A stretch of DNA of 64,000 nucleotides, from NCBI RefSeq assembly GCF_000738435.1, contig NZ_CP003984.1, positions 2,914,001 through 2,978,000 of the forward strand, written 5' to 3'. Position 1 is the stretch's first letter. Each line of letters opens with the position of its first letter. A program made the translations under genes and the position numbers. The notes below the pieces were generated by a model that worked only from the letters and a program-made list of their open reading frames with translations, did no database searches and was not told the DNA's origin. This stretch comes from Planktomarina temperata RCA23 (GTDB taxonomy: Bacteria; Pseudomonadota; Alphaproteobacteria; Rhodobacterales; Rhodobacteraceae). Shown here in pieces: positions 24,232-34,594 of the stretch.

Positions 24232-24948
24232 GTGATTGCGCATCTGCCCATGTATGATGTGCCGGCCAACCGCGCCGCACACCGACGCCTGTGGCAGGCG
24301 CTGCAGGACCACCTGCCAGATGCGCCGAATTTCACCCAACCGAGCGTGGATCTTATGGTCGATTGGCTCAGCCCAGAGCTTTATCTGTCCCAAACCTGCG
24401 GCCTGCCCTATCGCGCGGCGCTGCATGGCCAGGTGCAGTTGATTGCCACGCCAGACAATCAAATTCCAAATTGCCCGCCAGGCTATTACTGCTCGGTGCT
24501 GCTGGCTCGCCGGGGCGCGGTTCCAGACCTTGCGGCCAATGACTTTACCTTGGCCTATAATGAACCGCTGTCTCAATCGGGTTGGGCCGCACCGCAGTCC
24601 ATTGGCCTCACCGGCGCCACACGGCTGCAAACCGGCGGACATGCAGCCTCGGCCCGCGCTGTTTTGGAGGGACGGGCTGATCTGGCTGCCGTGGATGCGT
24701 TGACTTGGCATTTTTTGACACGCGATTGGGACAAGGCGGCAGGGCTAGAGATCTGCGCCATCACTCCTGCCACGCCAACGCTGCCCTATATCACCGCATT
24801 GGGCCAAAACGCAGCCGCCCTCCGCGAGGCTCTGCGGCAGGCGATTCTCTCTATTGGCCTAAAAGACAGGCAAACACTTCAAATATTTGACCTCGTTGAG
24901 ATCAATGCCGAGGCTTACCTGCAATTGCCGCTGCCTCCGACCCCTTAA
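24232..24948 (+). CDS. Solitary PhnD/SsuA-type substrate-binding protein
   Basis: 238 residues of the type-2 periplasmic-binding fold seen in phosphate/phosphonate binding proteins (IAHLPMYDVPAN, TLAYNEPLSQSGW, GGHAASARAVLEGRADLAAVDALTW). The GTG start at 24232 gives no signal peptide, and no permease or ATPase of the PhnCE type is adjacent: the ABC operon that follows has its own, unrelated binding protein. It is therefore either cytosolic with a sensing or scavenging role, or mis-started. It follows the TerB gene with almost no gap. Confidence 0.75.
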   Translation: MIAHLPMYDVPANRAAHRRLWQALQDHLPDAPNFTQPSVDLMVDWLSPELYLSQTCGLPYRAALHGQVQLIATPDNQIPNCPPGYYCSVLLARRGAVPDLAANDFTLAYNEPLSQSGWAAPQSIGLTGATRLQTGGHAASARAVLEGRADLAAVDALTWHFLTRDWDKAAGLEICAITPATPTLPYITALGQNAAALREALRQAILSIGLKDRQTLQIFDLVEINAEAYLQLPLPPTP

Positions 24949-25026: not shown

Positions 25027-25800
25027 GTGAACGACCAAAATATACCCGTGATTGAAATAAAAAGTCTCCATAAAGCCTATGGGGATCTTGAGGTTCTCAA
25101 AGGTGTCGACATCACAGCAAAACGCGGTGATGTGGTGGCGCTTATTGGCTCGTCTGGATCTGGGAAATCCACTCTGCTGCGCTGCTGCAATATGCTGGAG
25201 ATCAGCCAAAAGGGTGCGATTCTCTTCCAAGGCGAGGCCGTCCGCTGGAGCTCTCAGGGACACAACCGGCGTCCGGCCGATCCCGCTCAAGTCACCCGGC
25301 TGCGCACCAACCTGTCGATGGTCTTCCAACAGTTCAACCTTTGGGCGCATATGACCATCTTGCAAAATGTCATGGAAGCTCCGGTAACCGTGCTCAAACA
25401 GGATAAATCCGAAGTCGAATCCCGCGCCCGTGCGCTTCTGGATAAAGTGGGTATTGGCGAAAAATGCGATGTCTACCCCGCCCAACTGTCTGGCGGGCAA
25501 CAACAAAGGGCTGCCATCGCCCGCGCCTTGGCCATGGAGCCCGAAGCACTATTGTTTGATGAACCTACATCCGCCCTTGATCCAGAATTGGAGCAAGAGG
25601 TGATTGGCGTCATCAAGGATTTGGCCGCGGAAGGGCGCACCATGCTCATCGTCACCCATGACATGGCCATGGCGCGCGATGTGGCCAATCACGTTATTTT
25701 CTTGCACCAAGGGGTGATTGAGGAACAAGGTCCTCCCGAGACCCTCTTTGGTGCACCGAAATCACAACGGCTTCAGCAGTTTCTTTCTGCCGTCGCTTAA
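25027..25800 (+). CDS. ABC transporter ATP-binding protein, basic amino acid/amine type (HisP-like)
   Basis: 257 residues from GTG 25027, which has AGGAG 5 bases upstream. Walker A GSSGSGKST, signature LSGGQQQRAAIARAL, Walker B LLFDEPTSALDP and the switch His in VTHDM are intact. The insertion between Walker A and the Q-loop (HNRRPADPAQVTRLRTN) is typical of HisP/AotP-type ATPases. First gene of an operon with a binding protein, two permeases and amine-catabolic enzymes, which suggests a cationic substrate. Confidence 0.93.
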   Translation: MNDQNIPVIEIKSLHKAYGDLEVLKGVDITAKRGDVVALIGSSGSGKSTLLRCCNMLEISQKGAILFQGEAVRWSSQGHNRRPADPAQVTRLRTNLSMVFQQFNLWAHMTILQNVMEAPVTVLKQDKSEVESRARALLDKVGIGEKCDVYPAQLSGGQQQRAAIARALAMEPEALLFDEPTSALDPELEQEVIGVIKDLAAEGRTMLIVTHDMAMARDVANHVIFLHQGVIEEQGPPETLFGAPKSQRLQQFLSAVA

Positions 25801-25833
25801 CAACACTCAGCCACATATCTTAGGGAGATACAT

Positions 25834-26547
25834 ATGAATAAGCTGATCTTGACCACCGCCGCATTGGCGCTGACCGCTGGCATGTCTTTTGCCGATACAA
25901 TCCGGATGGGCACCGAAGGGGCCTACCCCCCCTATAACTTCATCAACGATGCTGGCGAAGTTGACGGCTTCGAGCGTAAATTGGGTGATGAGCTCTGCGC
26001 GCGGGCCATGTTGACCTGCGAATGGGTTGTCAACGACTGGGACAGCATCATTCCAAACCTAGTGTCCGGCAACTACGACACCATCATTGCCGGCATGTCG
26101 ATCACAGCGGAGCGTGATGAGGTGATCGACTTCACTCAAAACTATACCCAACCTGATCCTTCCGCTTATATGGCCCTCTCGGCTGATGTGGATCTCTCAA
26201 GCGCTGTGATTGCCGCGCAAGCCAACACCATTCAAGCCAGCTTTGTGGCCGCCTCTGGCGCCACACTGGTGGAATTTGCAACACCGGAAGAAACCGTGGC
26301 TGCCGTGAAAAACGGTGAAGCCGACGCTGTGTTGGCGGATAAAGCCTATCTCACCCCCGTGGCAGAAGGCGATGCCGATCTGGTGCTCTTGGAGCAACAA
26401 GAGTTGATCGGTGGCGGCGTGGGCATGGGGCTCCGCGAATCCGATACGGAGCTGCGCGACAAATTTGATGCCGCCATCGCCTCTATGAAAGCGGATGGGT
26501 CGTTGAACGCGCTGATCGCCGAATGGGACATTGGCGAACAATTCTAA
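25834..26547 (+). CDS. Periplasmic amino acid/amine-binding protein (ArgT/HisJ family)
   Basis: 237 residues. A cleavable signal peptide (MNKLILTTAALALTAGMSFA, cleavage after SFA) is followed by the family 3 solute-binding start IRMGTEGAYPPYNFIND. GFERKLGDELC, AGMSITAERDEVIDFTQ and the C-terminal lobe MGLRESDTELRDKFDAAIA follow. The family binds basic amino acids, opines and related amines; linked catabolic genes point to a di- or polyamine-like ligand. A stable stem-loop follows the gene, as often seen where the binding protein must be made in excess over the membrane subunits. Confidence 0.92.
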   Translation: MNKLILTTAALALTAGMSFADTIRMGTEGAYPPYNFINDAGEVDGFERKLGDELCARAMLTCEWVVNDWDSIIPNLVSGNYDTIIAGMSITAERDEVIDFTQNYTQPDPSAYMALSADVDLSSAVIAAQANTIQASFVAASGATLVEFATPEETVAAVKNGEADAVLADKAYLTPVAEGDADLVLLEQQELIGGGVGMGLRESDTELRDKFDAAIASMKADGSLNALIAEWDIGEQF

Positions 26548-26558
26548 CTGAAAACCTT

Positions 26559-26582
26559 GGGGGCGGGTTCATCCTCGCCCCC
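26559..26582 (+). other. Stem-loop after the binding-protein gene
   Basis: GGGGGCG and CGCCCCC flank a 10-base loop, 12 bases past the stop codon, with no U-tract. It probably stabilises the binding-protein message and attenuates expression of the downstream permeases. Confidence 0.55.
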
Positions 26583-26680
26583 ATTGCCCCAGAACGCCGA
26601 CGTATGAGACGCCGTTAAGGATTTAGAATAAATATTCACCGAAAAAGGCCCGCCGACGCCAAACCGAAGGTCCCAGTCCG

Positions 26681-27547
26681 ATTTTTAACTATTGTTCAGA
26701 TCCTAGCCTCCTTTCCAGCCTGCCCTGGCTCAGCTGCTATCTGACCACGGGCAAACACCTGTTGTTTTATCAATCCTTCGCAACGGTGCTCATCCTCTTG
26801 GCGGTCACGGCCCCTGCGGCGCTTGTGTTTGGCTTTGGCGGCGCGACCTTGGCGCGCGCCCGGCTCTTGCCATTACGCCTTATCGGCAAAACCTATATCT
26901 CCGCTGTGCGCGGCGTGCCTGATATTGCTTTTTTCCTGTTTTTTGTCATCGCCCTGGATCAAGGTTTCGAATGGCTGCGCCATCAGGCGCTTTGCCCCGA
27001 TTGGAACGAACCTATTCGCCAAGGCAATGACTTCGTCGTCTGCGCTGCGGCCAAGCTGCCCTTGGGCACAGCCCCACAATATGTGCATGAGATTTACGGG
27101 TTTTTCACCGCGGTTTTGACCTTTGCAATCGTCTTCGGAGCCTTTGCCGCCAATGTCCTTTATGGTGCCATGCGCGCCGTGCCCCAAGCCCAGATAGAAA
27201 CAGCGCAAGCCTATGGTATGCGCCCAGCGCAAGTATTTTGGCGTATTTTGGTGCCGCAAATGTGGGTCTATGCCCTGCCTGGGCTGTCCAATCTTTGGAT
27301 GGTCTTGATCAAGGCCACACCGCTATTATTTTTGCTTGGCGTCGAAGACATTGTTTACTGGGCCCGCGAATTGGGTGGCACGAAACAGGCGAAATTCTCC
27401 GACTATCCCCATGGTGACTGGCGCATGCAGTATTTTCTGTTTCTGCTGGTCTTTTACCTTGCCTTTACCAAACTCTCCGAGGTGGTGCTGGAACGCGTAA
27501 TGAAACGCCTCACACATGGGCAGGGTACATTGGGAGCCACCTCATGA
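26681..27547 (+). CDS. ABC transporter permease (HisM/HisQ family), possible ATT start
   Basis: Integral membrane subunit with about five to six helices and the coupling motif EAA-type sequence (AQAYGMRPAQVFWRILVPQMW). The first conventional start in this frame is TTG at 26762, but it would cut off residues that look family-like (CYLTTGKHLLFYQSF). The frame is open upstream to 26627 without ATG or GTG. ATT at 26681 (I/M-FNYCSDPSLL) has AAGG 10 bases upstream and gives the expected extended N-terminus, so I place the start there with moderate certainty. The stop overlaps the second permease by four bases. Confidence 0.8.
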   Translation: MFNYCSDPSLLSSLPWLSCYLTTGKHLLFYQSFATVLILLAVTAPAALVFGFGGATLARARLLPLRLIGKTYISAVRGVPDIAFFLFFVIALDQGFEWLRHQALCPDWNEPIRQGNDFVVCAAAKLPLGTAPQYVHEIYGFFTAVLTFAIVFGAFAANVLYGAMRAVPQAQIETAQAYGMRPAQVFWRILVPQMWVYALPGLSNLWMVLIKATPLLFLLGVEDIVYWARELGGTKQAKFSDYPHGDWRMQYFLFLLVFYLAFTKLSEVVLERVMKRLTHGQGTLGATS

Positions 27548-28347
27548 GCTGCCAGCAAACCATTTTGGACTATGGGCTGCGCTCGCTGGGCTATGGCGAA
27601 CGCCTGCTGCCCAAGTCGGATTTCACCCTTTGCCAGCATTTCACGCTGATTGGCTCGGGTCTCATTTGGAATATCTATTTCGGAGCCTTGGCACTTTTGA
27701 TCGGATTTTTCATCGCCAATGCGATGGCGCTCGCCAAGGCCAGCCCCCGCGCGATTCTGCGCCGGCCGGCTGAATGGTTTATTTTAATTTTCCGCGGTTC
27801 TCCGCTGTTTATCCAATTTTTCTTGGCCTATTTCATCTTTCTGCGCCTCAAGCAGCAAGGCCTTCTGCCTTGGCTGACCGCGGCACAATTTGGGGCGCTC
27901 TTGGTGCTGATCCTCAACACAGCCGCCTATTCTGCCGAAATTTTCTACGGCGCGTTGCGGTCCGTGCCAAAAGGAGAGGTTGAGGCCGCCGATGCCTATG
28001 GCCTTTCGGGCTGGTCGCGCTTCCGCCGCGTGATCTGGCCCACCAGCCTACGCCTGGCTTGGCCGGCCTATACCAATGAGGCAATTTTTCTGTTTCATGC
28101 GACCACCTTGGTGTTTTTTTCAGGCTTCCCAGCCTGGCAACAGCGCGGCGATGCCCTCTATTACGCCAGCTATTTCGCCGATAAGACCTTCAACCCCTTC
28201 ATCGCCTATCCTATTTTGGCCTTTTATTTCATCCTGCTCACTTTTGTGATCATCGGCTTTTTTGGCCTTGTCAACGCACGTCTCAATCGACATCTTCCAA
28301 GCCAGGCGCGCCCGAAGCTGCGCTATAGGCCACAGGTCATAAGATGA
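27544..28347 (+). CDS. ABC transporter permease (HisM/HisQ family), second subunit
   Basis: 267 residues with five predicted membrane helices and the cytoplasmic EAA loop VEAADAYGLSGWSRFRRVIWP that docks on the ATPase. It forms the presumed heterodimeric channel with the preceding permease; ATGA overlap couples their translation. Its own stop overlaps the first ligase gene by four bases, tying uptake to catabolism in one transcript. Confidence 0.92.
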   Translation: MSCQQTILDYGLRSLGYGERLLPKSDFTLCQHFTLIGSGLIWNIYFGALALLIGFFIANAMALAKASPRAILRRPAEWFILIFRGSPLFIQFFLAYFIFLRLKQQGLLPWLTAAQFGALLVLILNTAAYSAEIFYGALRSVPKGEVEAADAYGLSGWSRFRRVIWPTSLRLAWPAYTNEAIFLFHATTLVFFSGFPAWQQRGDALYYASYFADKTFNPFIAYPILAFYFILLTFVIIGFFGLVNARLNRHLPSQARPKLRYRPQVIR

Positions 28348-29621
28348 GCAAATCCCTTCGTGTCGCAGCTGTTGATCTCAATGGTCAATTACGCGGCAAA
28401 CGCGTCCCCAAAGGCATGAGCGGCAAGCAAATGCGCATGCCGCTGTCCGTCCTCAATATTGATGTATTCGGGGCAGACATCCAAGAATCGCCGCTTGTGT
28501 TTGAAACCGGCGATCAAGACGGCATTATGGAGCCAGCGGGCCGTGACCCTGTCCCTCTGCCTTGGGTGGCAGGTGAGGCGGAATTGGACCTAAGGGTGAT
28601 GCACAATGAAGATGGCTCCCCCTTTGAAGGCGACCCGCGCATTGCCTTGAGCGATGTTTTGAACCGTTATGCCCATCATGGCTGGCAGGTGATTGCCGCC
28701 TGTGAACTGGAATTTTTCTTGCTCGAAGATGGTGGCAATCTTGCGCCACCGGTGAATCCCAAAACCGGCCGCCGGTTGAGTGGAACCGAAATTTTGTCCC
28801 TGCGGGAATTGGATGGGTTCGATCACTTCTTCAACGATGTGTCCGAAGGGGCAAAGCTCATGGGGATAGGTGATTTGACCATCACCACAGAAGCCGGCGT
28901 TGGGCAGTTTGAAGTCACGATGACCCATGGCCCGGCACTTCACATAGCAGATAATGTCATTTTGCTCAAAGAACTGATCAAAGGCACCGCACGCAACCAC
29001 GGCATGGCCGCAACCTTCATGGCCAAACCTTTTTCCGATGAAAGCGGCAACGGGCTGCACACGCATTTTTCGGTGATCAATCAGGCGGGTGAAAACATCT
29101 TCTGCAGCCAGGACAAGTTACAATCCGCAGTTGCAGGCTGTCTTGAGGCCTTCGAAGCCAGCACGTTGTTTTTCGCCCCCTATGTCAATAGTTTTGAACG
29201 TTTCGTCGCGGGCGCCCATGCGCCGACCTCCGCCACCTGGGGCTATGAAAACCGCACCGTCGCCATGCGTATTCCCAGTGGCCCAAAAGCCGCCACACGG
29301 ATTGAACATCGCGTGGCCGGCGGCGACGCCAATCCTTATTTGCTTTTTGCCGCCATTTTCGGCGCCGCTTTAGAGGGTATAGAACGCAATTCCGTGCCAC
29401 CTGCGCCAATTGAGGGCAATGCCTACGAACACCCCGCACAGCTGCCTGGGTTGTTGCCTGATCTTTCTGCCGCGATTGAAGGGCTGGAGGCGCCACTGCT
29501 TGAGCAGTTCATGCCCCCTCTCATTTTGGAAAATCTCGCGGCCACAAAATCACAAGAACGCGATCTTTTTGATAAGCTTTCGGATCATGACGCCCTCATG
29601 GCCTTGATCGACACTGCCTAA
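28344..29621 (+). CDS. Glutamine synthetase family ligase, paralogue 1
   Basis: 425 residues of the glutamine-synthetase fold. The beta-grasp domain (VAAVDLNGQLRGKRVP) is followed by the catalytic domain with metal ligands E121/E123 (CELEFFL), E183 and E190, the ATP-phosphate loop GNGLHTH (H239, H241), and NRTVAMRIP plus IEHRVAGGDANPYL. The active site looks intact. Members of this branch join glutamate to amines (gamma-glutamylputrescine, gamma-glutamylmethylamide and similar) instead of ammonia. The substrate is unknown; operon position suggests it acts on the imported amine or on a product of it. Confidence 0.88.
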   Translation: MSKSLRVAAVDLNGQLRGKRVPKGMSGKQMRMPLSVLNIDVFGADIQESPLVFETGDQDGIMEPAGRDPVPLPWVAGEAELDLRVMHNEDGSPFEGDPRIALSDVLNRYAHHGWQVIAACELEFFLLEDGGNLAPPVNPKTGRRLSGTEILSLRELDGFDHFFNDVSEGAKLMGIGDLTITTEAGVGQFEVTMTHGPALHIADNVILLKELIKGTARNHGMAATFMAKPFSDESGNGLHTHFSVINQAGENIFCSQDKLQSAVAGCLEAFEASTLFFAPYVNSFERFVAGAHAPTSATWGYENRTVAMRIPSGPKAATRIEHRVAGGDANPYLLFAAIFGAALEGIERNSVPPAPIEGNAYEHPAQLPGLLPDLSAAIEGLEAPLLEQFMPPLILENLAATKSQERDLFDKLSDHDALMALIDTA

Positions 29622-29681
29622 ACACGTCTTTTCAAACCAGCGGAACCTGCATAGGATCCGCGCAATCTACAAGAGGTTCCA

Positions 29682-30383
29682 ATGCTGATCGGCATTTTAC
29701 AATGTGGCCATGCGCCGGATGAGGTCCGTGCCCAGCACGGTGATTTCGACGCTATGTTTGCCACTTTGTTTCAAAGCTATGACTTCACCTTCCAAACCTG
29801 GAACGTGGTGGATGGAGATTTTCCCGCCGCCATTGACGCGGCAGACGGATGGTTGATCTCCGGCTCCAAACATGGCGCCTATGAGGATCACGCTTTTATC
29901 CCTCCTTTGAGTGAATTAATCCGCGAGATCTATGCCAGCGCGCGCCCTATGGTGGGCATATGCTTTGGCCACCAGATCATAGCGCAAGCGCTGGGGGGGC
30001 GCGTGGAGAAATTTGAAGGGGGCTGGGCTATTGGCCGACATGACTACAGCTTTAATGGCCATGGCTCGGTGACGTTGAATGCTTGGCATCAAGATCAGGT
30101 CACGACCCTACCTCCCGAAGCGCAGGTCATCGGCAGCAGCCCATTTTGCCAATTCGCCGCGCTGATTTATGGGCAAAAAGCTTTTACGGTTCAGCCGCAC
30201 CCCGAGTTCAGCAATTCAGTCTTCGATGATTATGTGAAATCGCGACGCTCAAGCCCAGTCTATCCGCCGGCCTTCATGGAACGCGCGGATCAATTGCGCG
30301 ATGTACCGATCCAGAATTCCGCAATTGCGCAGGATATAGCCGCCTTCCTCAAAGGAAAATATATACCGGAGATACGCTCATGA
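29682..30383 (+). CDS. Class I glutamine amidotransferase / gamma-glutamyl hydrolase-like protein
   Basis: 233 residues with the triad Cys-His-Glu: GICFGHQIIAQALGG (nucleophile Cys near residue 95) and QPHPEFS. In gamma-glutamylation pathways a class I amidotransferase-fold enzyme (PuuD in E. coli) releases glutamate from the gamma-glutamyl intermediate; this protein is closer in pattern to the GuaA-like branch but has the right fold and position between two ligases. The stop overlaps the next ligase by four bases. Confidence 0.85.
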   Translation: MLIGILQCGHAPDEVRAQHGDFDAMFATLFQSYDFTFQTWNVVDGDFPAAIDAADGWLISGSKHGAYEDHAFIPPLSELIREIYASARPMVGICFGHQIIAQALGGRVEKFEGGWAIGRHDYSFNGHGSVTLNAWHQDQVTTLPPEAQVIGSSPFCQFAALIYGQKAFTVQPHPEFSNSVFDDYVKSRRSSPVYPPAFMERADQLRDVPIQNSAIAQDIAAFLKGKYIPEIRS

Positions 30384-31732
30384 GTTGGAAAGACAGCCTA
30401 CCGGCCAGTGCCAAAGCCTATATTGGCGAGCGGCAATTGGATGAGGTCGAATGCATCATTTCCGATTTTCCGGGCGTGGCGCGCGGCAAAGCGGTTCCGG
30501 CCTCAAAATTTGCCAAACAAGAGCATTTCTATCTGCCCAACTCAATTTTCCTGCAAACGCTCACGGGCGAATGGGCGGAAGCGGCAGGCGAGGAGGGCTG
30601 GGTGGAGCCTGATATGACACTGCGCCCCGACCTCGACACCGCCACCGCAGCACCTTGGGCCACCGATGCCACCTTGCAGGTCATTCATGATGCCTATGAT
30701 CGCGATGGTGCGCCGATCCCAACCGCGCCGCGCAATGTCCTCAAGCGCGTGGTTCAATTGTTCCGCGACAAGGGGCTTGAGCCTGTGGTTGCGCCAGAGA
30801 TGGAATTTTTTCTTGTTGCCCGCAACACAGATCCGGCGCAACCGATTGTGCCAATGATGGGGCGCTCAGGCCGGCCAGCGGCGGCGCATCAAGCCTACTC
30901 GCTTTCCGCCGTTGATGAATATGGCCCGGTGATCGATGATATTTATGACTTTGCTGAGGCCCAAGGTTTTGAAATTGATGGCATTACCCAAGAGGGCGGC
31001 GCGGGTCAGGTTGAGATCAATCTGCGCCATGGTGATCCGGTGAAACTCGCCGATGAGGTGTTCTTTTTCAAACGCCTGATCCGCGAAGCGGCCTTGAAAC
31101 ACGATTGTTTTGCAACATTCATGGCCAAGCCCATCGCCGATGAACCCGGCTCCGCCATGCACATTCACCACTCATTTTTGGACGCAGATGGCGACAATAT
31201 TTTTGTCGGCCCACAGGGCGGTGAGACTGATGTTTTTTACCATATGATCGCCGGGCTGCAAAATCATCTGCCATCGGTCATTGCCATGCTGGCGCCCTAT
31301 GTGAACAGCTACCGGCGCTACGTCAAAGATCATGCCGCCCCAATCAACCTCGAATGGGCCCGCGACAATCGCACCACAGGAATTCGCATCCCCCTGTCTT
31401 CACCGAAGTCACGCCGGATTGAAAACCGTCTGGCAGGAATGGATTGCAATCCCTATCTTGGCATCGCCGCCTCCCTGGCCTGTTGCTATCTTGGGCTTGA
31501 AGATCAGGAGCGCCCCGACAAACAATATCGAGGTGACGCCTATGACAGCGAAGAGGCGATCCCTTATGACCTTTTCACGGCCATGGATATTTTTGATGAG
31601 GCCAAGCGCCTGCATGAGGTGCTTGATCCCGAATTTGCCCGGGTCTATTCGATCGTCAAGCGCACGGAATATAGTGAATTTTTGCAGGTCATTTCCACTT
31701 GGGAGCGCGAGCATCTGTTACTGAATGTCTGA
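30380..31732 (+). CDS. Glutamine synthetase family ligase, paralogue 2 (gamma-glutamylputrescine synthetase-like)
   Basis: 450 residues, similar in plan to PuuA. N-terminal domain VECIISDFPGVARGKAVP, metal ligands E140/E142 (APEMEFFLV), E205 and E212, GSAMHIHHSF (H261, H263), and TTGIRIPLSSPKSRRIENRLAG. Compared with paralogue 1 it keeps a longer N-terminus and a methionine in the GSAMH loop. It overlaps the flanking amidotransferase and oxidase genes by four and eight bases, so the three products are probably made in fixed proportion. Substrate assignment to putrescine is by analogy only. Confidence 0.9.
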   Translation: MSWKDSLPASAKAYIGERQLDEVECIISDFPGVARGKAVPASKFAKQEHFYLPNSIFLQTLTGEWAEAAGEEGWVEPDMTLRPDLDTATAAPWATDATLQVIHDAYDRDGAPIPTAPRNVLKRVVQLFRDKGLEPVVAPEMEFFLVARNTDPAQPIVPMMGRSGRPAAAHQAYSLSAVDEYGPVIDDIYDFAEAQGFEIDGITQEGGAGQVEINLRHGDPVKLADEVFFFKRLIREAALKHDCFATFMAKPIADEPGSAMHIHHSFLDADGDNIFVGPQGGETDVFYHMIAGLQNHLPSVIAMLAPYVNSYRRYVKDHAAPINLEWARDNRTTGIRIPLSSPKSRRIENRLAGMDCNPYLGIAASLACCYLGLEDQERPDKQYRGDAYDSEEAIPYDLFTAMDIFDEAKRLHEVLDPEFARVYSIVKRTEYSEFLQVISTWEREHLLLNV

Positions 31733-33029
31733 TTTTCTCTACGCCAATGATCAACCGGGCCGCTATCCCGCCAGCTGGTATGCTCAAAACATTCCCGAGC
31801 ACCCGGCCCGGCCCGCACTTACAGATGTGATATCTTGTGATGTCTGCATCATTGGTGCAGGCTTCACAGGATTGTCCTGCGCGCTTCATTTGGCGCAAAA
31901 GGGCTATCATGTCATCGTGTTGGATGCGCATAGGGTAGGCTTCGGCGCCTCCGGCCGCAACGGCGGGCAAGTGGGATCTGGGTACAACCAAAGTCAACAG
32001 ACGCTTGAGAAGACACTGGGCCATGATGCGGCCCATCAGCTTTGGGATATGGCACAGGCCGCCAAATCTCTGACACAAGATTTGGCAGCCCGCCACGCGC
32101 CAGAGGCCGGCTATCAACCCGGTGTCGCCGAAGCAGACTTCAACGCAAAAGACCGGGCCAGCAGCCACGCAAAGGCGGATTATCTGGCCCGGCATTATGC
32201 CTATGAAAAGATTGATTGCCTTAACCAAACGGATATCGCAAATCTCATCAAATCCCCACGCTATGCGGGGGGGATCATTGATTGGGGCGCCGGGCATCTT
32301 CATCCGCTGCGCTACGCCTTGGGCCTAGCCACTGCCGCTGAGACCGCCGGGGCGCGCATTTTTGAAAACAGTGCGGCAATTTCGGTGCAAGACGGCCCCC
32401 CGAGCCTCGTGCAAACCGCCAAAGGCCAATTGCGCGCCAGCTATGTCGTCCATGCCACCAATGGCTATCACAGCAGCCTCAACCCGCGCCAAGCCGCCAA
32501 GGTCATGCCGATCAATAACTTTCTGGTGGCCACAGAGCCGCTGGACCGGCCGCAAGAGGTTTTGAGCAAGCCCATCGCTGTCGCCGATAACCGCTTCGTG
32601 CTCAATTACTATCGCCTCAGCCATGACAATCGGCTGATTTTTGGCGGTGGCGAAAGCTATGGAGCACGGTTTCCAGAAGATATTTTTGCTAAGGTCCGCA
32701 GGCCCCTGTGTGAAATTTTCCCACAGCTGGCCGATGTGCCGCTGACCCATGCCTGGGGCGGAACCCTCGGAATCACCACACGGCGTCTGCCGCTCTTTGC
32801 CCATGTCGGGCCGCAGCAGCTCACCGCTTCTGGCTATTCCGGGCATGGGGTGGCTCTGGCGGGATTCGCTGGGCAAGTCTTGGCAGAGACGATTGCGGGA
32901 GATGCAGAGCGCTTTGACCTTCTGTCCCAGCTTCCCACCCCCTCCTTTCCTGGCGGGCAAAGCCTGCGCGGCCCAATCATGACTTTGGCGATGACATGGT
33001 TCGCTCTGCGCGATAGGCTCGGCCTATGA
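31725..33029 (+). CDS. FAD-dependent amine oxidoreductase (gamma-glutamylputrescine oxidase-like)
   Basis: 434 residues of the DAO family. N-terminal dinucleotide fold CIIGAGFTGLSCALHLA (42-58), VLDAHRVGFGASGRNGGQVG containing the GRNGGQ motif typical of PuuB/OrdL proteins, and a C-terminal FAD-contact block YSGHGVALAGFAGQVLAE. It would oxidise a gamma-glutamyl amine to an aldehyde with release of ammonia and hydrogen peroxide. Overlap of eight bases with the preceding ligase supports a shared pathway. No aldehyde dehydrogenase (PuuC) follows in this window. Confidence 0.9.
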   Translation: MSDFLYANDQPGRYPASWYAQNIPEHPARPALTDVISCDVCIIGAGFTGLSCALHLAQKGYHVIVLDAHRVGFGASGRNGGQVGSGYNQSQQTLEKTLGHDAAHQLWDMAQAAKSLTQDLAARHAPEAGYQPGVAEADFNAKDRASSHAKADYLARHYAYEKIDCLNQTDIANLIKSPRYAGGIIDWGAGHLHPLRYALGLATAAETAGARIFENSAAISVQDGPPSLVQTAKGQLRASYVVHATNGYHSSLNPRQAAKVMPINNFLVATEPLDRPQEVLSKPIAVADNRFVLNYYRLSHDNRLIFGGGESYGARFPEDIFAKVRRPLCEIFPQLADVPLTHAWGGTLGITTRRLPLFAHVGPQQLTASGYSGHGVALAGFAGQVLAETIAGDAERFDLLSQLPTPSFPGGQSLRGPIMTLAMTWFALRDRLGL

Positions 33030-33110
33030 CACAGGTTGCCCCTTGCAGATTCACAGCAAAATCCGTGCCTGCCACAGGCTGGTTTGGCGTGGCCAATGGC
33101 ACATGGGCTT

Positions 33111-33127
33111 GGGCGGGCGCGCCGCCC
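33111..33127 (+). other. GC-rich stem-loop between oxidase and aminotransferase genes
   Basis: GGGCGG and CCGCCC flank GCGCG in the 197-bp gap. It may attenuate read-through from the amine operon into the aminotransferase gene; no U-tract. Confidence 0.3.
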
Positions 33128-33226
33128 CAAAATTGCGGCACTGATTTCATCCGGCCTTAACTGTAAAGGCCTCCTGTTTTTGGGCCGGCGGCCTGCCCTC
33201 CGGTCCCTCCAAGCAAAGGTCCCCCT

Positions 33227-34594
33227 ATGAAAGACCAATCTCCGAACAGCTGGGAAGCACGGGCTGATGCCCATTCCTTCTACGGCTTCACCGATTTACC
33301 AACGATTGAAAACCGCGGTGCAACGGTCCTCACCCACGGCCGCGGCCCCTATGTTTTTGACGTGCACGGCCGACAATTTTTAGATGCCAACTCTGGCCTT
33401 TGGAATATGGTTGCCGGATTTGATCATGCCGGTCTCGCACAGGCCGCCAAGGATCAATATGACCGCTTTCCCGGCTATCACGCCTTTTTTGGCCGAATGT
33501 CCGACCAAACTGTGATGCTGTCGGAAAAGCTCGTTGAGGTCTCCCCCTTTGAGAGCGGCAAGGTGTTTTACACCAACTCTGGCTCTGAAGCCAATGACAC
33601 GATGGTCAAAATGCTTTGGTTTCTGCACGGGTCAGAAGGCCATGATCAGCGACGCAAAATTATTACCCGCAAGAATGCCTACCATGGCGTCACGGCGGTC
33701 TCGGCATCTATGACCGGCAAGCCCTATAACTCTGTCTTCGGCCTGCCTTTGCCCGGCTTTTTGCATCTGACCTGTCCGCATTATTGGCGAGAAGGCCAGC
33801 CAGGCGAAACGGAGGCGCAATTCACCGCGCGGCTTGCGGCTGAATTGGAAGAGATGATCCTGCGCGAGGGCGCAGACACGATTGCCGGTTTCTTTGCAGA
33901 ACCAGTGCTGGGCGCAGGCGGGGTGATTCCACCGCCAGAGGGCTATTTTCAGGCGCTTCAACCCATATTGCAAAAATATGGTATCCCATTGATTTCCGAT
34001 GAGGTGATTTGCGGTTTTGGGCGCACGGGGCATACTTGGGGATGCGAGGCCTATGGGTTTGTACCGGATGCCATCATCAGCTCCAAAAACCTCACGGCTG
34101 GATATTTCCCCATGGGGGCGGTCATTCTTGGCCCGCAATTGACCCAGCGTTTGCAAGCAGCTTCAGAGGCGATTGAGGAATTCCCGCATGGGTTCACCGC
34201 ATCCGGCCATCCGGTTGGCTCCGCCATTGCATTGAAAGCCATTGATGTCATCATGAATGAAGGGCTGGCTGAGAATGTGCGCCGCCTAACCCCCTATTTC
34301 GAAGCGCATATGCAGCGGCTCCTTGAAAATCCAAATATCGGTGAGGCAAGAGGTAAGGGCTTGATGGGGGCATTGGAGGCCGTGCAAGACAAGGGGAGCA
34401 AAACCCCCTTCGCCGCAGAGTTGTCTGTCAGTGAGCGGATCGCGAACACCTGCACCGATCACGGGTTGATCTGTCGACCTTTGGGGCAATCTATCGTGCT
34501 TTGCCCGGCGTTCATCTTTACCGAGAGCCATATCGATGAGATGTTTGAAAAGCTGGAAGCGGCTTTGAAACAAGTGTTCCGTGAAGTGGCCTAG
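33227..34594 (+). CDS. Class III aminotransferase (putrescine/omega-amine:pyruvate type)
   Basis: 455 residues of fold-type I PLP enzymes. VFYTNSGSEANDTMVKM binds the cofactor phosphate, ISDEVICGFGRTG contains the PLP aspartate, and K287 in SSKNLTAGYFPMGAVI is the Schiff-base lysine. The pattern W-R/F-G-Y near the N-terminus (LWNMVAGFDH, FPGYHAFF) is typical of omega-amine:pyruvate and putrescine aminotransferases (SpuC-like). The 197-bp gap suggests a separate or attenuated transcript from the amine operon, but the role fits: deaminating a diamine or the GABA-level product. Confidence 0.9.
   Translation: MKDQSPNSWEARADAHSFYGFTDLPTIENRGATVLTHGRGPYVFDVHGRQFLDANSGLWNMVAGFDHAGLAQAAKDQYDRFPGYHAFFGRMSDQTVMLSEKLVEVSPFESGKVFYTNSGSEANDTMVKMLWFLHGSEGHDQRRKIITRKNAYHGVTAVSASMTGKPYNSVFGLPLPGFLHLTCPHYWREGQPGETEAQFTARLAAELEEMILREGADTIAGFFAEPVLGAGGVIPPPEGYFQALQPILQKYGIPLISDEVICGFGRTGHTWGCEAYGFVPDAIISSKNLTAGYFPMGAVILGPQLTQRLQAASEAIEEFPHGFTASGHPVGSAIALKAIDVIMNEGLAENVRRLTPYFEAHMQRLLENPNIGEARGKGLMGALEAVQDKGSKTPFAAELSVSERIANTCTDHGLICRPLGQSIVLCPAFIFTESHIDEMFEKLEAALKQVFREVA

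Follow-up and report, generated by a model that had tools for sequence, protein, structure and literature searches.

The window analysed here is a stretch of 64,000 nucleotides (bases 2,914,001-2,978,000) of the single-contig, 3,288,122-base genome of Planktomarina temperata RCA23. Its forward strand carries a cluster in which the genes of a PAAT importer are followed by those of gamma-glutamylation-type enzymes. From the proximal to the distal end, the genes encode a PhnD-like protein, a PAAT ATPase, a family-3 periplasmic binding protein, two permeases (permease 1 and permease 2), a glutamine synthetase (GS)-like ligase (GS1), a class I glutamine amidotransferase (GATase), a second GS-like ligase (GS2), a flavin adenine dinucleotide (FAD)-dependent oxidase, and a class III aminotransferase (Table 1). 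Beyond the latter, genes named by eye as phaR-like and phaC-like lie on the opposite strand. The open reading frames (ORFs) and the family profiles agree on the gene set, from the PAAT ATPase through the aminotransferase, that an earlier note on this DNA had described. With a probability of roughly one half, or slightly above, the cluster is a basic-nitrogen scavenging operon common to many Rhodobacteraceae, combining a lysine-type PAAT importer with the gamma-glutamylation of diamines or polyamines.

The genes are tightly packed, although not as uniformly as the earlier note had it. Its overlaps of 4 to 8 bp are found at four joints according to the ORF coordinates (4 bp for permease 1/permease 2, permease 2/GS1, and GATase/GS2; 8 bp for GS2/FAD oxidase), but three joints are gapped: 133 bp separate the binding protein gene from permease 1 (counted to its inferred ATT start, and including a hairpin), 60 bp GS1 from the GATase, and 197 bp the FAD oxidase from the aminotransferase. 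Since this last gap holds a terminator-like site (+ strand, 33153-33171), the aminotransferase may form a separate transcription unit; the site could be due to chance, 17 such sites being found against 11.6 expected (standard deviation 3.6). The promoter scan gave a chance-level result, with 4 found and 6.0 expected.

Table 1. Features of the importer/gamma-glutamylation cluster, in window coordinates
Feature	Position	Strand	Basis
PhnD-like protein	24232..24948	+	PF12974, 54.8 bits
PAAT ATPase, HisP/TcyN/GlnQ/ArtP-type	25027..25800	+	ORF list, family profiles; start GTG 25027 or ATG 24958
Family-3 periplasmic binding protein, basic-amino-acid (probably lysine) type	25834..26547	+	71% identity to 3i6v, conserved contacts
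GC-rich RNA hairpin, 10-bp stem, directly 3' of the binding protein gene	26558..26583	+	Folding energy against shuffles
Shine-Dalgarno-like AAGG, 10 nt upstream of the ATT start	26667..26670	+	Orthologue alignment
Permease 1, HisQ/ArtQ-type, inferred start ATT 26681-26683	26681..27547	+	Family profile, orthologue alignment
Permease 2, HisM-type	27544..28347	+	ORF list, family profile
GS1, GS-like putative amine ligase, PuuA/SpuI side of the tree	28344..29621	+	Profiles, tree, fold match
Class I GATase-like hydrolase, gamma-glutamyl hydrolase candidate	29682..30383	+	Intact GICFGHQ and HPE motifs on visual inspection; closest solved relative 9k7i
GS2, putative SpuB-type gamma-glutamylpolyamine ligase	30380..31732	+	Profiles, tree
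FAD-dependent gamma-glutamylamine oxidase candidate, DAO family	31725..33029	+	Family profiles
Class III aminotransferase, 4grx/3nui/4e3q amine-transaminase type, accessory	33227..34594	+	Matches to solved structures

The distribution of the cluster was followed in 120 Rhodobacteraceae genomes, about one per genus. The binding protein is present in 98 of them (E <= 1e-50), GS1 in 91 (E <= 1e-80, some matches being paralogues outside the cluster), GS2 in 115 (E <= 1e-60), and the class III aminotransferase in 30 (E <= 1e-150). Linkage, defined as location within 12 kb on one strand, was counted by a script from the match positions; the counts for GS2 are limited to the 96 genomes with matches of at least 66% identity, and contig breaks push all linkage counts down. 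Such linkage unites the binding protein with both GS1 and GS2 in 63 of the 120 genomes, and GS1 with GS2 in 74. The binding protein is linked to GS2 without a linked GS1 in nine genomes and to GS1 without a linked GS2 in seven, among which G045 and G056 are at contig ends and G042 has an inversion (GATase-GS2-FAD oxidase turned relative to the importer and GS1, locus L179). In many loci the frame is kept as well, with pyrG before and phaR/phaC-like genes after the cluster. Because the gene order recurs in this way across the Rhodobacteraceae, the cluster is more than a chance arrangement. The PhnD-like gene precedes the importer in many of these loci; its product displays no obvious signal peptide by eye and may be a cytosolic ligand-binding protein.

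The importer is of the PAAT family with an SBP_bac_3 binding protein, which agrees with the basic-amino-acid type assigned in the earlier note; the cluster harbors no PotD-type importer of the kind found in Spu systems. The AlphaFold model of the binding protein has a mean predicted local distance difference test score (pLDDT) of 90.8. Its best solved relative, with 71% identity, is 3i6v from Silicibacter pomeroyi, whose truncated title reads "in complex with ly", a ligand that we take to be lysine. Further matches are nopaline- and octopine (opine)-binding proteins, LAO proteins, and SAR11_1210, called an arginine-/lysine-binding protein. Among 85 sequences, the contact residues R94, T132, and Y31 are kept in all 85, D169 and E28 in 84, and S89 in 83. 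In LAO structures, the equivalents of R94 and D169 hold the alpha-carboxylate and the alpha-ammonium groups, the pair of contacts typical of LAO/ArgT-type proteins. As these conserved contacts suit a zwitterion, an alpha-amino acid is favored over a diamine as the ligand, and the cargo of the importer is probably a lysine-type basic amino acid and not an amine. The amine uptake proposed earlier is thus not supported. The earlier note had named specificity of the binding protein for a standard amino acid as evidence against its own proposal; by homology, the importer probably has such a protein, which leaves the enzymes untouched. An importer that looks amine-type from its context, and is easily misread as such, is here probably one for a basic amino acid. 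Four loci (L165, L167, L168, and L175) exhibit a tandem of two binding protein genes ahead of a single permease pair; of the two copies, the one more distant from that of the window is 34-58% identical to it.

It is unlikely that diamines or polyamines enter through the PAAT importer and that the two ligases serve two amines taken up in this way. The 4-bp overlap between the importer and ligase genes and the linkage in 63 genomes would suit such an assignment, as would two Pseudomonas-like loci (L131 and L146) in which a PAAT-like ATPase (53-54% identical), a permease, and a binding protein lie near GS2 and PuuB relatives. However, diamines do not possess the alpha-carboxylate/alpha-ammonium arrangement that the almost invariant R94 and D169 would recognize, and the closest solved relative was crystallized with a ligand presumed to be lysine.

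The two ligases were placed in a FastTree phylogeny, whose 86 GS-like proteins are a selection from 238 matching ORFs together with the queries. GS2 groups with the SpuB-like proteins found at Pseudomonas-like loci, and GS1 falls on the PuuA/SpuI-like side, a branch with a support of 0.996 but with weak internal grouping (0.194). Pairwise identities are 46% for GS2 and SpuB-like proteins, 37% for GS1 and SpuI-like proteins, 35% for GS1 and PuuA, and 29% between GS1 and GS2. On visual inspection, the GS catalytic motifs are retained in both, in line with the two active-looking ligases of the earlier note, and neither contains the D-G-S-S stretch seen in the GlnA of this genome; with catalytic motifs and no GlnA ammonium-site stretch, they have the traits of GS-like ligases of the PuuA/PauA kind. 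Their scores against the NCBIfam model GGputSyn are 146 and 172 bits, for a cut-off of 650. The GS1 model (pLDDT 88.4) matches GS folds, the match to a Chromohalobacter GS-like enzyme having a Z-score of 45.2 and a deviation of 2.1 Å over 354 residues; such a predicted fold does not tell the substrate.

The presence of two ligases had been taken as a hint of two amine substrates or of an unusual one. Such an assumption is not needed, since the PuuA/SpuI and SpuB lineages are paired in Pseudomonas-like spu loci. Four of these loci (L132, L134, L147, and L148) are labeled Pseudomonas-like from their gene order: a PuuA-like gene on the + strand, then PuuD-like, SpuB-like, transaminase, and PotA-type ATPase genes on the - strand. 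This order fits the published divergent spuABCDEFGH-spuI operons, as named in a reference title in PMC9397018. The SpuI and SpuB lineages also co-occur in other polyamine loci, and each ligase of the window is found in some genomes with the importer but without the other; a novel or asymmetric amine was therefore rejected as an explanation. Outside the family, GS2 relatives often lie near PotA-type ATPases, PuuB, PuuC, PuuD, or class III transaminases. Elsewhere in the Planktomarina genome, a GmaS-like ligase gene follows three glutamate-synthase-like genes (L136 6692-11041, genome about 2,507,349-2,511,698; names by eye), a cluster that resembles the N-methylglutamate route for methylamine.

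The GATase possesses a class I domain, as predicted by the note, with Cys-His-Glu motifs, and it scores 26 bits against Peptidase_C26 (PuuD type; cut-off 20.5). Its closest solved relative, 9k7i, is gamma-glutamyl peptidase 1 (E 2.8e-20). Its identification as SpuA is not supported, Pseudomonas-like spu loci carrying a PuuD-like hydrolase; it may resemble PauD2 (PA1742). The next enzyme, annotated earlier as PuuB-like, is indeed an FAD protein of the DAO family (212 bits), but its best NCBIfam match is the L-pipecolate oxidase AmaA, at 178 bits and below the cut-off of 600.

The ORF list shows no aldehyde dehydrogenase in the operon, so the absence of PuuC claimed previously holds locally. It is not a special trait of this cluster: no PuuC relative was found within about 8 kb of the four Pseudomonas-like spu loci named above, and PauC/KauB of P. 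aeruginosa (PA5312) is encoded far from SpuI (PA0296) and SpuD-SpuH (PA0300-PA0304), according to passages of PMC9397018. The search for a distant puuC, which the earlier note had suggested, returned 23 aldehyde dehydrogenase matches (PF00171) in the genome. One of them, at 2,784,757, shares 50% identity with E. coli PuuC; it belongs, however, to another cluster, with a GS-like ligase, a P450, and a GATase. This second gamma-glutamylation-like cluster (L137 9953-17991, genome 2,778,236-2,786,274) encodes the GS-like ligase, the cytochrome P450, the class I GATase, a tripartite tricarboxylate-type transporter, and the PuuC-like aldehyde dehydrogenase, some names being given by eye.

The aminotransferase scores 844 bits against 4grx and 834 against 3nui and 4e3q ("Pyruvate transaminase"), and 316 against 9j4z ("Polyamine:pyruvate transaminase"). 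The SpuC-like identity assigned at first was therefore rejected in favor of the 4grx/3nui amine-transaminase type. The sources of 4grx, 3nui, and 4e3q are Paracoccus and Vibrio fluvialis, and these enzymes are used in chiral amine synthesis. The gene is linked to GS2 in 16 of the 30 genomes that carry it, and its genome context hints at a role in amine catabolism. In many relatives, the site after the oxidase is occupied by a DegT-type aminotransferase and a LysR regulator, as in L066 (15517-17859); in L083 (12556-14730), DegT and class IV aminotransferases stand in place of the class III enzyme.

Several pieces of evidence thus support the gamma-glutamylation of amines proposed in the earlier note, by homology: the SpuB-type GS2, the position of GS1 on the PuuA/SpuI side, the DAO-type oxidase, and a GATase close to gamma-glutamyl peptidase 1. 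From these we infer the following order of steps. The PAAT importer would bring in a lysine-type basic amino acid, as suggested by the crystal structure of its orthologue and the conserved contacts. GS1 and GS2 would attach glutamate to one amino group of a diamine or polyamine at the expense of ATP, and the FAD oxidase would turn the other amino group into an aldehyde. An aldehyde dehydrogenase encoded elsewhere would make the acid, from which the GATase-like hydrolase would free glutamate and an omega-amino acid (gamma-aminobutyrate or 5-aminovalerate). The transaminase would finally take the remaining amino group. Where relatives encode a pyridoxal phosphate (PLP)-dependent decarboxylase, the two halves of the operon would combine into a route from lysine via cadaverine to 5-aminovalerate.

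Labeling experiments in Phaeobacter inhibens showed that lysine is converted to cadaverine, 5-aminopentanoate, and glutarate, with pipecolate in parallel, according to passages of PMC5653290. This fits an operon made of a lysine importer and diamine degradation enzymes; Phaeobacter sp. 11ANDIMAR09 (L064) carries the cluster. Among the 120 genomes, the decarboxylase family PF02784 has at least two matches in 93, one in 26, and none in one. The lysine-cadaverine link can hence hold in many relatives, though not via the families searched in the window genome. There, PF02784 matches one gene, which is probably lysA as its upstream neighbor is argH-like (names by eye), and the second decarboxylase family, PF01276, has no match. 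As only the probable lysA was matched, lysine cannot be turned into cadaverine by PF02784 or PF01276 enzymes here, and lysine decarboxylation inside Planktomarina was rejected within the two families searched. The amines of Planktomarina would therefore be imported by other transporters or made in another way.

This result weighs against the proposed basic-nitrogen scavenging role, and it is not alone in doing so. Genomes G039, G084, and G105 have the linked cluster yet one PF02784 match each. Loci L161 and L164 combine the importer with a GATase and a DegT transaminase, with neither ligase nor oxidase at the locus, and L162 has the importer and DegT only. Against the NCBIfam models for named functions, each of the ten proteins scores under the curated cut-off, save for a match to a general aminotransferase subfamily. 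The verified importer of cadaverine, putrescine, and spermidine in Ruegeria pomeroyi is potFGHI (SPO3466-3469), as stated in PMC10130141; the main text of that source never uses the word lysine, and so neither supports nor excludes lysine uptake.

A further reading, which we regard as unlikely, is that importer and enzymes are neighbors co-regulated by nitrogen limitation but acting on unrelated substrates, with Pot-type transporters taking up the amines. The importer does occur without an adjoining ligase (L166-L173) and the ligases without the importer (L188 and L190), the R. pomeroyi polyamine importer is of the Pot type, and the Planktomarina genome has eight SBP_bac_8 matches above the cut-off, some of which may be Pot-type. 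Against it stand the overlapping genes, the linkage in 63 genomes, and the linkage of the importer to one ligase where the other is not linked, GS2 in nine genomes and GS1 in seven. Other partial forms comprise the importer with GS2 and DegT (L177), and several genomes with a partial form carry ligase relatives elsewhere. That the ligases glutamylate the side-chain amine of imported lysine or ornithine directly, with no decarboxylase needed, is very improbable: the importer stands with GS1 and without the rest in L181-L183 and on plasmid pFER4 of Paracoccus ferrooxidans, and Planktomarina has no PLP decarboxylase of the two families searched save the probable lysA, but the SpuB lineage of GS2 and the PuuA/SpuI relatives of GS1 are described as amine ligases, and among the matches listed from the open-licence literature there is no amino-acid ligase of this type. 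The operon is then best considered a widely shared variation on the Spu/Pau systems, its importer being of the lysine type. Rhodobacteraceae are abundant in the sea, and the cluster gives candidate genes for their use of lysine and amine nitrogen.

A second feature of the cluster is the start of permease 1. Its conserved N-terminus contains no ATG, GTG, or TTG, and the aligned start is an ATT ten bases after AAGG, a start more likely by orthologue alignment than the first canonical codon, TTG 26762. At this position, 88 loci have ATG in 44 cases, GTG in three, ATT in 32, ATC in four, ATA in three, and other codons in two. Among the 39 orthologues starting with AUU, AUC, or AUA (AUN), 33 have an in-frame upstream stop with no canonical start in between. 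Pairwise differences in codons 2-26 of the AUN genes fall mostly at third positions (6.4, 5.0, and 12.0 per pair), and the 15 upstream triplets exhibit no such excess (10.3, 9.9, and 9.9). In 24 of 87 loci, permease 1 has no canonical start anywhere from the upstream stop to residue 12, a situation seen in none of 612 copies of eight other cluster genes. Permease 1 thus appears to have a non-ATG/GTG/TTG start, supported by conservation.

The AUN start goes together with a strong putative ribosome-binding site. A Shine-Dalgarno (SD)-like core is found upstream of 37 of 39 AUN genes versus 12 of 47 ATG/GTG genes (Fisher p 2e-11), and a stricter pattern upstream of 28 of 39 versus nine of 47 (p 1e-6), these tests, like the next one, treating related loci as independent. 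A second sample comprises 89 loci (22 AUN, 64 ATG/GTG, one CTG, and two other starts), of which almost all are single loci taken from the genomes of the 120-genome set and some 34 also belong to the first sample; here, the core precedes 21 of 22 AUN versus 10 of 64 ATG/GTG genes (p 1e-11), and the median energies of the anti-SD duplex are -6.7 and -3.7 kcal/mol, respectively. In a five-gene tree of 87 loci with 10 supported independent pairs, the SD core goes with AUN in 7.6 pairs on average and against it in 0.0, with the remaining 2.4 showing no difference; the sign test gives a median p of 0.008 (range 0.002-0.07). A tree of permease 1 only gives four supported independent pairs (median p 0.25) and the second sample one, too few to decide. 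The hairpin after the binding protein gene has an energy of -22.1 kcal/mol for 56 nt (z -2.28, nine of 200 shuffles being as stable). It was rejected as a special AUN feature, the median best 60-nt energy being -28.1 kcal/mol in AUG/GUG and -25.6 in AUN loci (43 and 38 loci, p 0.026).

It is somewhat more likely than not, then, that permease 1 is translated from a non-canonical start, and that the gene switched repeatedly in Rhodobacteraceae between AUN with a strong SD and AUG/GUG with little or none. Two interchangeable initiation codes would in this way maintain a conserved low set-point of the membrane component relative to the binding protein. The start codon would act as a dose control, as in a few genes such as infC and sigR, the weak start holding the membrane component at a lower level than the binding protein. 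A word of caution comes from a 2026 title stating that, for a Borrelia gene, a rare start codon in earlier reports had arisen from misannotation (PMC13398362). Neither the AUN start nor this operon is described among the matches listed from the open-licence literature. If confirmed, the switches would represent a natural, many-times-repeated experiment on the trade-off between start codon and SD strength, and would mark genes truncated by pipelines limited to ATG/GTG/TTG.

The cluster shares parts with several known systems. Its binding protein has the fold and zwitterion contacts of the LAO/ArgT- and NocT/OccJ-type PAAT proteins and of 3i6v; unlike these types, it stands in an operon with gamma-glutamylation enzymes, and its ligand is predicted from sequence. 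Its aminotransferase matches the amine/pyruvate transaminases 4grx, 3nui, and 4e3q over nearly its full length. The proposed ligase, FAD oxidase, and hydrolase steps are common to the E. coli puu operon, whose single ligase, PuuP permease, PuuC, and PuuE are absent or replaced here. The P. aeruginosa spuABCDEFGH-spuI and pau systems likewise comprise SpuI- and SpuB-lineage ligases, a hydrolase, and a class III transaminase, with no PuuC-type gene close to Pseudomonas-like spu loci. In contrast to these, the window has a lysine-type PAAT importer instead of SpuDEFGH, a GuaA-like class I GATase instead of a PuuD-like hydrolase, an oxidase inside the operon, and a transaminase of another subgroup. 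As for the start of permease 1, infC of E. coli starts with ATT and Streptomyces sigR with GTC, and repression by IF3 keeps SigR below its partner RsrA, according to passages of PMC5472188. All three are conserved genes to which a non-canonical start is assigned; unlike in infC and sigR, the start of permease 1 is deduced from sequence, it belongs to a transporter gene, and its codon varies between species.

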